Source of the DNA: Candidatus Nitrospira allomarina
Lineage (GTDB): Bacteria; Nitrospirota; Nitrospiria; Nitrospirales; UBA8639
Reading direction: 5' to 3'
Assembly (NCBI RefSeq): GCF_032050975.1
Contig: NZ_CP116967.1
Location: 4,089,001-4,153,000, forward strand
DNA length: 64,000 nucleotides
The notes under the pieces were generated by a model. The model searched no databases. It saw only the letters and a program-made list of their open reading frames with translations, and was not told the DNA's origin. Below, piece by piece: positions 11,742-14,439 of the stretch (positions within the stretch are counted from its first letter, which is position 1; every line of letters starts with the position of its first letter). The position numbers and the translations under genes are program-made.

Positions 11742-13028
11742 TTACAACAATTTTCCGTCGGATTCGTCCTTAGGCGCATCTAAGGCTTGGAGTTCCAGCC
11801 CTTCAATTTCCTGCAACGTTTTCCCGGCGATGCCTTGCAGGTCCCCGTACATGCCCACGGTCGCCATCATCACCCGATCGATTTGCTCTTCACGTTTAGC
11901 CCATTGCTTCATAATGACTTTCCGCTCTTTATCAAGATCCTCCTTCATCGAGGAGAACCCTTCGACGATCGCTTGAACCCGTTGCCGGAAGCGCGGACCC
12001 ATTAAATACTGATAGACCATTTCCATTTTGGTTTGCTGCCCTTCCGAGGCCTGCCTGGCGCAAGCCACCTCCATGAGCGTATTACGCATGGCAATAGCCA
12101 GGGGAAGGGCAACTTTGGGATGAGTGACCCAGACGCCGTCGATGAATTCGAATGTGTCCACTTCTTTGGGTAGGGCCTGACTGACGATGATCGCAATTTC
12201 AGCTTTGGCCTGCCGCTGATCCTCACGTAACTTGATGAGCCAGACATCACTCCAGTTCTTGGTTCGCTTCGATTCCCACAAGATGGTTCCGCAGGCTTGG
12301 CCGAAGGAGCTGGCAACCCGGTGCAGCACATCGCCGCCATGCTCGCCTTTGGCCACAGGTGAAATCTGATCCAGGGGGAATTTCGAGGTGAGCATGGCTT
12401 CGAGTTCGAGCTCTTGGACTTCGCCCTGAAGTTGTTGAGACCCCTGTTCAGCACGACGCTTGAGTTCTTCAATTTGTTTTTGCATGGAAGCAATGGTCTG
12501 CTCTTTCTCCATGACTTTAAATTTGAGCCCTTCTTCGGCTTCTTTTTTGGCCTGATCCCGGGTGACAGTAAGTCCCTCCTGGACGCGCTTTTCTATAGTG
12601 AGATCCAATTCGCGTTTGGCGTCATCCAGTTCCCGTTGCTTACGGAGCAGATCGGCTTGAACTTTTTGTGCTTCCGCAAGCTTTTCATCCTTTTGTTTAA
12701 GTATTTCTTGAATCTCACGTATTTCTTTAGATTTCTGGTCGAGATCATTGGAGAGCGCCAGTCTGGCCTTTCTCGCTTCTTCCGCCACAATTTTGCTGCG
12801 TTCGAGTTTTAGTTTGTCAGCCACCTGCTCTTCGAACCGCTCCTGAGATTTGGCAAGCGAGGCTTCGCGCTCACGCAAGGCCGCATCCCGTTTGACGGCA
12901 TCAGCATCTTTTTGAGCAAGTCGTTGCTCGAAGTCTCGCTTGGTGGCTTCGAGAAGAGGCGCAGCGAGCGACTCGGTCAGTTTAATTTCCGTTTTGCACT
13001 GTGGACAGATGATCGTGGGTTCAGTCAT
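11742..13028 (-). CDS. DUF2130 protein: coiled coil plus PD-(D/E)XK-like nuclease domain
   Basis: Length (428 aa) and sequence fit the DUF2130 family. Residues 1-20 carry one C-P-Q-C knuckle, residues 30-205 are a long charged coiled coil, and residues 206-340 form a compact domain. In that domain G-G-D233-V and, 19 residues on, W-E252-S-K254 match the Asp...Glu-x-Lys core of PD-(D/E)XK nucleases. A helical region follows. Coiled coil then nuclease resembles RmuC, a protein linked to DNA rearrangement control. The nuclease reading is my inference from the motif. It lies 74 bases after the TIR gene on the same strand and is probably co-transcribed with it. The ATG at 13028 has only a weak purine-rich stretch upstream. 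Confidence 0.75.
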   Translation of the reverse strand: MTEPTIICPQCKTEIKLTESLAAPLLEATKRDFEQRLAQKDADAVKRDAALREREASLAKSQERFEEQVADKLKLERSKIVAEEARKARLALSNDLDQKSKEIREIQEILKQKDEKLAEAQKVQADLLRKQRELDDAKRELDLTIEKRVQEGLTVTRDQAKKEAEEGLKFKVMEKEQTIASMQKQIEELKRRAEQGSQQLQGEVQELELEAMLTSKFPLDQISPVAKGEHGGDVLHRVASSFGQACGTILWESKRTKNWSDVWLIKLREDQRQAKAEIAIIVSQALPKEVDTFEFIDGVWVTHPKVALPLAIAMRNTLMEVACARQASEGQQTKMEMVYQYLMGPRFRQRVQAIVEGFSSMKEDLDKERKVIMKQWAKREEQIDRVMMATVGMYGDLQGIAGKTLQEIEGLELQALDAPKDESDGKLL

Positions 13029-13102
13029 AGAATTTCTTTTTGCTCTTCACTTTAATAATAGAAATATCTTCCGTCGGGATAGGATCTGAATACTCCCAAG
13101 GA

Positions 13103-13591
13103 TTATTTGGCCACGATTTTATCCAAACGGGCCTCGACCTGCCGAAACAATTCCAACGCAAATTGATCACGATGAGAACCCGAACATTCCCCGTAGGCTT
13201 TCGGAGAGGCGAAACGCGGGCGATCCAGCCGAAAGATTTGCGTCTGGAGTAAACCTTTCAGATCATGCCGTTCCAAATCGATTGGTTGCAACATTACCGG
13301 AATAACGGATCGACCTCCACTCTTCACAAACTTGGGAAGTTCGTGATCCTGAATATATTGGGAACCAAGCAACGCAGGGCTGATCAGGACCAATCCCACG
13401 TCGCACTCTCCCAAGGCGTGTTGAATTTCTTCGTGCCATTTTTCGCCTACCAGGATATCGCTATCCCGCCAGAAGGTATAGTGATACTGTTTGGAGGGCG
13501 CGGCCTGCTCTTTAAATTTTTTTAAAAATCGAGTCGCCAGATCACGATTGGCGCGGGCATAGGACACAAACACGGTAATGTTCTTTTTCAT
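13103..13591 (-). CDS. TIR-domain protein
   Basis: Single-domain bacterial TIR protein (162 aa from the ATG at 13591). TIR domains in prokaryotes commonly cleave NAD+ or make signalling nucleotides in antiphage defence. Key features are the start F-V-S-Y-A-R-A-N (the BB-type first strand), F-W-R-D-S-D, W-H-E-E-I near residue 52, L-V-L-I-S-P near 70, and S-Q-Y-I-Q-D-H-E84-L, where E84 corresponds to the usual catalytic Glu. No sensor domain is fused, so the downstream DUF2130 protein is the obvious candidate partner. The frame extends to 13642 but the M-K-K-N start begins the domain properly. The TIR assignment is solid; the defence role is inferred. Confidence 0.85.
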   Translation of the reverse strand: MKKNITVFVSYARANRDLATRFLKKFKEQAAPSKQYHYTFWRDSDILVGEKWHEEIQHALGECDVGLVLISPALLGSQYIQDHELPKFVKSGGRSVIPVMLQPIDLERHDLKGLLQTQIFRLDRPRFASPKAYGECSGSHRDQFALELFRQVEARLDKIVAK

Positions 13592-13746
13592 ACTCGTGTA
13601 AGCAGGGGCGGACGATTTGTCGAACCATCCTAGCCAACACATGCCACAATGTACAGGTCAGGGTCCTTCTGATTGCTCCCTCTTCACTTACGGACTTTTT
13701 TTATGCCAGGATTGAGGCTTTTCCCACCATCTCAGTTGGCCTTTGA

Positions 13747-14439
13747 ATGACACGGAAGATTCTCCTAATCGGCAATTCTGATGGAATCGGAGCAGCAGTA
13801 ACCAATGCGCTTTTCGCTCGTGGTGAACATGTCGTCGGACTTTCGAGAAGTCCCAGTCCACTTGGTCCGGATGGCCCACGGCATATCGTACAGGATATCG
13901 CCACTCCCGAGTATCCGCAGGTTCTACAAACTCTTCTTGCCGAAGAAGGGCATTTTGACGCCTGCATATTTTGCGCGGCCATTGGTTCGAGATTGACATT
14001 TCCTGACCTCTCACAGGAAGCCCGCGTCGTTGACGTGAATTTCACCTCGATGGTGCGAACCCTGGCCGCCCTCGCGCCAGGCTGGCTTGAACGAGGCCAG
14101 GGGCACTTCATCGGCCAATCAAGTCTCGCCGATGATTTTTACAACGCCGACTCCCCTTCCTATACGGCATCGAAGGCCGGCTTTAGTAATTATTTAGTCT
14201 CCATGGGATTAAAGCTCCGATCGCATGGCGTGTACGTCACCAATATTCGCTTTGGGTTTGTGGATACGAAGCTGCCTAAGGCGTCCTGGAAGCCACTGAT
14301 GATGACCGCCGATCAGGCCGCGGCCCATGTCCTACGATGCTTGGAAACAAAACCCATGCAACTGAGCGTTCCCAAATTAGCAGGCCTCGCCATTCACGGT
14401 GTCCGTTGGATGCAGTCAATTCGACTATGGTGGTCCTAA
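13747..14439 (+). CDS. Short-chain dehydrogenase/reductase
   Basis: SDR-family NAD(P)-dependent oxidoreductase of about 230 aa, near the usual 240-250. The nucleotide-binding glycine motif is G-N-S-D-G-I-G at about residues 9-15. A C-A-A-I-G segment stands for N-A-G, and the catalytic stretch is Q-S-S-L-A-D with Y-T-A-S-K, giving the Ser-Tyr-Lys triad. A basic residue after the second strand (S-R-S) favours NADP(H). The substrate is unknown. It is divergent from the TIR gene with about 155 bases between the starts. The following FABP-like gene is in the same direction about 110 bases on. Confidence 0.85.
   Translation: MTRKILLIGNSDGIGAAVTNALFARGEHVVGLSRSPSPLGPDGPRHIVQDIATPEYPQVLQTLLAEEGHFDACIFCAAIGSRLTFPDLSQEARVVDVNFTSMVRTLAALAPGWLERGQGHFIGQSSLADDFYNADSPSYTASKAGFSNYLVSMGLKLRSHGVYVTNIRFGFVDTKLPKASWKPLMMTADQAAAHVLRCLETKPMQLSVPKLAGLAIHGVRWMQSIRLWWS

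Follow-up and report, generated by a model that had tools for sequence, protein, structure and literature searches.

In Thoeris, the ThsB TIR proteins themselves bind the major capsid protein of the phage, and in active ThsB a Phe residue opposes the catalytic Glu, as F6 and E81 do in staphylococcal ThsB2 (PMC12578639). In Shield, the RmuC domain of ShdA has a restriction-endonuclease-like fold and DNase activity and serves phage defence (PMC10270631). DUF2130 (PF09903, COG4487) is an uncharacterised protein family, and nothing in the titles and abstracts of the literature points to a role in defence. We analysed a window of 64,000 nucleotides from Candidatus Nitrospira allomarina in which a TIR gene lies directly upstream of a DUF2130 gene, both on the minus strand and with a gap of 74 bases. 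A first-pass annotation had described the two as a compact two-gene unit of a TIR protein and a nuclease-like protein; both open reading frames are present at this distance, the observation is confirmed, and its interpretation is partly supported by the data presented here. The same annotation knew of no named system containing this pair, and we found none in PADLOC, NCBIfam or the literature searched. Its argument that the TIR protein would need a separate sensor is weakened by the direct capsid binding of the TIR proteins in Thoeris (PMC12578639).

The TIR gene (13103..13591, minus strand) encodes a single-domain TIR_2 protein of 162 aa, identified from its open reading frame and a match to PF13676 (E=2e-14), the 54.4 bits of which lie above the curated cut-off of 28. 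Its start, MKKNITV, is kept in the alignments A1 and A4, and an in-frame ATG further upstream at 13642 is not conserved in the alignments of relatives. The candidate catalytic Glu noticed at first pass is intact: E84 (codon 13340..13342, minus strand) is invariant in 14 relatives, as is F8 (codon 13568..13570, minus strand), the Phe expected to oppose it, which corresponds by position to F6 of staphylococcal ThsB2 (PMC12578639). E84 is part of a Y-x-x-D-x-E motif, in which the Glu stands one position further along than in the more usual W-x-x-x-E; in alignments it matches the equivalent Glu of TIR proteins from plasmids and, with a one-residue shift allowed, that of PDB 7uxr. The structural model of the TIR protein is of low confidence (mean pLDDT 63.8); its best structural matches are TIR domains, including an RPP-type TIR, BtpA and ThsB, and a sequence search of the PDB with the TIR alignment returned no match below 0.01. 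The protein matches ThsB of PADLOC with E=1.6e-8 and 32 bits, and ThcB4 of NCBIfam with 15 bits at a cut-off of 220. We infer that it probably acts as an enzyme consuming NAD+ or signalling via NAD+.

The DUF2130 gene (11742..13028, minus strand) encodes a protein of 428 aa, identified from its open reading frame and a match to PF09903 above the curated cut-off covering profile positions 4-253 of 255 (E=2e-78, 263.6 bits). In an AlphaFold2 model built from 30 input sequences (mean pLDDT 79), a short N-terminal beta pair containing a CPxC motif (C8 and C11; 12996..13007, minus strand) is followed by a long helix belonging to a helical or coiled-coil region (residues 19-216; 12381..12974, minus strand), by a core modelled with pLDDT of about 83-94 (residues 204-310; 12099..12419, minus strand) and by helices C-terminal to this core. 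C8 and C11, possibly half of a zinc ribbon, are invariant in alignment A2 and nearly invariant in A3. The core shows the order helix-strand-strand-strand-helix-strand, with D233 (codon 12330..12332, minus strand) on the second strand and E252-S-K254 (codons 12267..12275, minus strand) on the third. K227, G228, G231, D233, E252, K254 and K257 are invariant, together with a QGSxQxQGE motif, in 30 diverse proteins with identities down to 31%. Both the coiled coil and the nuclease-like domain proposed at first pass are present in the model, the latter with the topology of a PD-(D/E)XK fold. The motif had been read as Asp and Glu-x-Lys separated by 19 residues; it is invariant in the relatives, whereas the spacing has to be corrected, the Asp and Glu positions being 19 apart with 18 residues intervening.

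Comparison of the model with known structures by Foldseek points in the same direction. In the PDB, HindIII, archaeal Hjc, the SPARDA nuclease, BstEII, MspJI, McrBC and a RecU-type resolvase are among the best matches; the best E-value is 2e-3 and none lies below 0.001, yet the PD-(D/E)XK superfamily dominates consistently. In a viral library, seven matches have E-values below 0.001; two of these carry a restriction-endonuclease annotation, one being Mrr-type, and Holliday junction resolvases and VRR-NUC proteins rank lower. The modelled core is accordingly PD-(D/E)XK-like, an alpha-beta-beta-beta-alpha-beta fold with an invariant D...ExK motif, and the protein is predicted to be a nuclease. 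Sequence searches with the DUF2130 profile gave no meaningful match in the PDB, and the best match among the PADLOC defence models had only E=0.91. We rejected an identity with RmuC (hhalign against RmuC PF02646, probability 0.1%); a separate true RmuC is encoded in the same genome.

These features bear on a model according to which the pair operates in the manner of Thoeris, the TIR protein sensing phage and producing a cyclic ADP-ribose-type signal that switches on DUF2130 as nuclease effector. The single-domain, possibly ThsB-like TIR protein retaining the Phe/Glu pair of active ThsB and the capsid sensing by ThsB-type TIRs themselves (PMC12578639) would agree with such signalling. However, Pfam detects neither a SLOG nor a macro nor any further nucleotide-binding domain in DUF2130, its sequence is equally conserved in relatives without TIR, and there is no ThsA in the neighbourhood. 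We judge this mode of action to be quite unlikely.

The intergenic spacer (13029..13102, minus strand) comprises 74 bases in the window and 14 to 570 bases in relatives. In three relatives dispersed repeats, GTCATCCCCGC...GGGATCCATC and GATGGATTCCCGATAAC...GTCGGGAATGACG, are located between TIR and DUF2130 with the gene order intact (L036:10490-10852, L040:9779-10200 and L041:10490-11059). As these repeats part the genes by 363-570 bases, a tight co-translation of the pair is not required. The pair occupies a fixed syntenic site having a short-chain dehydrogenase (SDR) gene and its neighbours on one side and cytochrome genes on the other; the SDR gene (13747..14439, plus strand) is a conserved syntenic neighbour outside the unit, and the housekeeping genes around the pair encode cytochromes c, a Cu/Zn superoxide dismutase (SOD), a ZIP transporter and the SDR. 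A cluster of GH3-family and enolase-like (MR_MLE) genes, absent in the window, lies between SDR and TIR/DUF2130 in some relatives (L058:7419-11512, with equivalents in L036, L037, L039, L040, L042 and L043). None of the defence genes searched for, including SIR2, was found in the 20 TIR-clade loci. The pair itself is situated outside any defence island and in metabolic surroundings.

A close TIR is present in 17 of 98 related genomes, namely in 16 of the 21 members of the genus and in one genome from another genus of the same family, and every one of the 17 encodes DUF2130 immediately downstream of it in the same orientation. In one further member of the genus, DUF2130 lies at the end of a contig and the TIR state is unreadable. 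The remaining four members lack both genes of the pair as well as the adjoining SDR gene, making a co-loss of only TIR and DUF2130 uninformative as a line of evidence. A single scan with the TIR profile, covering 84,980 species genomes, returned 14 loci, all from Nitrospirota MAGs. The pair is confined to two genera of one Nitrospirales family. In a tree of 69 sequences the DUF2130 proteins linked to TIR fall into a single group (support 98/90, 98% of bootstrap trees) adjoining the sister genus, which has DUF2130 at the same chromosomal site without TIR. This is explained by a single TIR gain beside an older DUF2130 or by a single loss in the sister genus, and it shows that DUF2130 does not need TIR. 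The conserved adjacency asked for at first pass therefore holds in every genome with the TIR, but among close relatives only and with a single origin: the adjacency is beyond chance, yet it goes back to one event that was then inherited, and the 17 cases are not independent.

Both genes are under strong purifying selection, with a mean pN/pS of about 0.15 for TIR and 0.13 for DUF2130, synonymous sites being near saturation for the farthest pairs, and their divergence is correlated (r=0.82). Divergence this slow is unusual for defence genes and counts against an anti-phage module. The strong purifying selection and the stable vertical descent among metabolic genes would suit a housekeeping role instead of defence, by which these Nitrospirales would couple DNA repair to NAD+ metabolism. 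Such a role is very unlikely in view of the patchy distribution of DUF2130, found in 59 of 296 sampled Nitrospirota genomes, and of its repeated occurrence in defence operons and phage contexts. In one genome, G010, DUF2130 is frameshifted after the nuclease-like core beside an intact TIR (loci L079 and L037); the frameshift is either genuine or due to an assembly error, and the combination counts against a joint module. The same genome encodes a second, distinct DUF2130 (L002, 402 aa) with scores nearly identical to those of G037 (L003) and G186 (L119), perhaps recently transferred.

Away from TIR, DUF2130 shows a different association. Outside the TIR clade, a broad HMM search over the flanking DNA found no TIR at any of 56 Nitrospirota DUF2130 loci, nor was there a TIR in the flanks of 20 viral contigs or the annotated flanks of nine plasmid or prophage loci; beyond Nitrospirota, we covered plasmid, phage and viral-contig collections and one scan of genome contigs with the TIR. 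Defence-type genes detected with Pfam and PADLOC are present at 19 of the 56 loci compared to one of 40 control loci, these controls being 40 stretches of the same genomes and their one match being weak. Seven loci from which the queries came were removed for a stricter comparison, leaving defence genes at 12 of 49 loci versus 1 of 40 controls (Fisher p=0.005). The most frequent are type III Mod (12) and a DrmD-like SNF2 helicase (10), further ones being AAA_15/OLD, PDC-S06, ResIII, IetS, SIR2, GHKL and PHP-type ATPases. An enrichment near known defence systems, as anticipated at first pass, is thus found for DUF2130 and not for the pair, and the opposing expectation, DUF2130 being mostly alone in housekeeping contexts, largely applies insofar as the family usually occurs without TIR.

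A recurrent operon of Nitrospirota brings together a DrmD-like SNF2 helicase gene, the DUF2130 gene, a cassette of variable content and type III Mod; several of these loci also have Res (L060, L061, L062, L064, L124, L131, L136, L144 and L145). The cassette contains OLD, PDC-S06, SIR2 with GHKL, AAA with the subtilase IetS, or a PHP-ATPase, and the operon looks like a modular defence locus of which DUF2130 is a frequent part. At L121:4565-7863 and L146:4580-7173, the stop of DUF2130 and the start of an OLD/AAA_15 ATPase gene share four bases, and the two are a translationally coupled pair. DUF2130 was found in 46 plasmid records, mostly rhizobial, and plasmid copies have type I RM, OLD with UvrD, SIR2 and other genes nearby; on large rhizobial plasmids of Bradyrhizobium (L048:7346-9254 and L055:3965-8988) SIR2, PIN or DUF87 lie within a few kilobases. 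The phage-like viral contigs L089-L107 also encode DUF2130, several copies adjoining DNA polymerase A, a PDDEXK_1 nuclease or an SNF2 helicase, which suggests that DUF2130 acts there in phage DNA processing or counter-defence. Because of this recurrence in RM/OLD-type operons and in phage replication modules, DUF2130 may be regarded as a coiled-coil DNA nuclease acting on foreign or aberrant DNA. Most likely, DUF2130 is a DNA-acting nuclease many times recruited to defence operons, with the TIR as one lineage-specific neighbour.

From the computed genes, motifs, single origin, adjacency and PD-(D/E)XK-like core we infer the putative roles of the two proteins and, tentatively, a small joint anti-phage module. 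The TIR would have been gained once, directly upstream of the older DUF2130, in the ancestor of two Nitrospirales genera of one family, and both genes would since have been co-inherited under purifying selection. Within this module DUF2130 would engage DNA and the TIR protein would provide an NAD+-based arm, either shutting down the cell or giving a signal. A joint function is plausible, if somewhat short of probable, because the 17 genomes agree in gene order and strand and the two active sites have stayed intact; the single origin, the strong purifying selection, the correlated divergence and the defence genes at other DUF2130 loci speak for it as well. Against it, the mere vertical descent of a stable chromosomal segment would produce the same pattern, the surroundings are metabolic, and the sister genus retains DUF2130 at this site without TIR. 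According to a rival explanation, in which the two are independent neighbours, DUF2130 serves alone in repair, recombination or stand-alone defence, the TIR acts solo, and their adjacency reflects intact regional inheritance. The many TIR-less DUF2130 loci in Nitrospirota, on viral contigs and on plasmids or prophages agree with this, as do the TIR-less copy that the sister genus has at this site, the variable and repeat-interrupted spacer, the region behaving as a block with SDR missing as well in the pair-less genus members, and the intact TIR beside a frameshifted DUF2130 in G010. On the other hand, the junction upstream is more variable, GH3/enolase-like genes being present or absent between SDR and TIR, whereas the order of TIR and DUF2130 is unchanged in 17 genomes on the same strand and with a usually short gap. 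We consider independent neighbours a serious possibility while leaning slightly away from it.

A broader proposal sees in DUF2130 a DNA nuclease against phage that is in wide use, unrecognised as such, and combined with varied partners (type III RM, OLD, PDC-S06, SIR2, IetAS), and in the TIR-DUF2130 pair a genuine two-gene system coupling the NAD+ chemistry of the TIR with DNA cleavage; as a whole it appears unlikely. Its PD-(D/E)XK-like core, its recurrence in RM and abortive-infection operons and its presence in phage replication modules make DUF2130 a testable candidate nuclease for defence and DNA processing missed by current defence catalogues. This recurrence is a more valuable lead than the narrow pair, which offers a compact two-gene version for testing DUF2130 and, if functional, would be a new, narrow form among TIR-based systems.

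Compared with Thoeris, the pair shares a single-domain TIR protein with some resemblance to ThsB, the conserved Phe and Glu and an adjoining second gene. It differs in its partner, a PD-(D/E)XK-like DUF2130 protein instead of a SIR2-SLOG, macro or membrane ThsA, in having no ligand-binding domain and in its slow vertical inheritance. We rejected membership in Thoeris, with no ThsA nearby and DUF2130, cytochromes, SOD and SDR as the neighbours. Within the DUF2130 family, the protein is full-length and has the CPxC motif, the coiled coil and the D...ExK core; members elsewhere are found without TIR, whereas here one lineage is TIR-linked. DUF2130 is plausibly a functional analogue of RmuC/ShdA, although it has neither RmuC profile similarity nor a membrane anchor and ShdA works without TIR. 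With the restriction-type PD-(D/E)XK nucleases, i.e. HindIII, Hjc, the SPARDA nuclease, MspJI and McrC, it has the core topology and the metal-binding motif in common, but it carries in addition a long N-terminal coiled coil with CPxC, and the individual Foldseek E-values in the PDB are 2e-3 or weaker. Finally, DUF2130 recurs in Nitrospirota inside type III RM operons into which cassettes are embedded (with DrmD-like helicase, Mod and Res), whereas no gene for a methylase, a helicase or Res lies near the TIR-DUF2130 pair.
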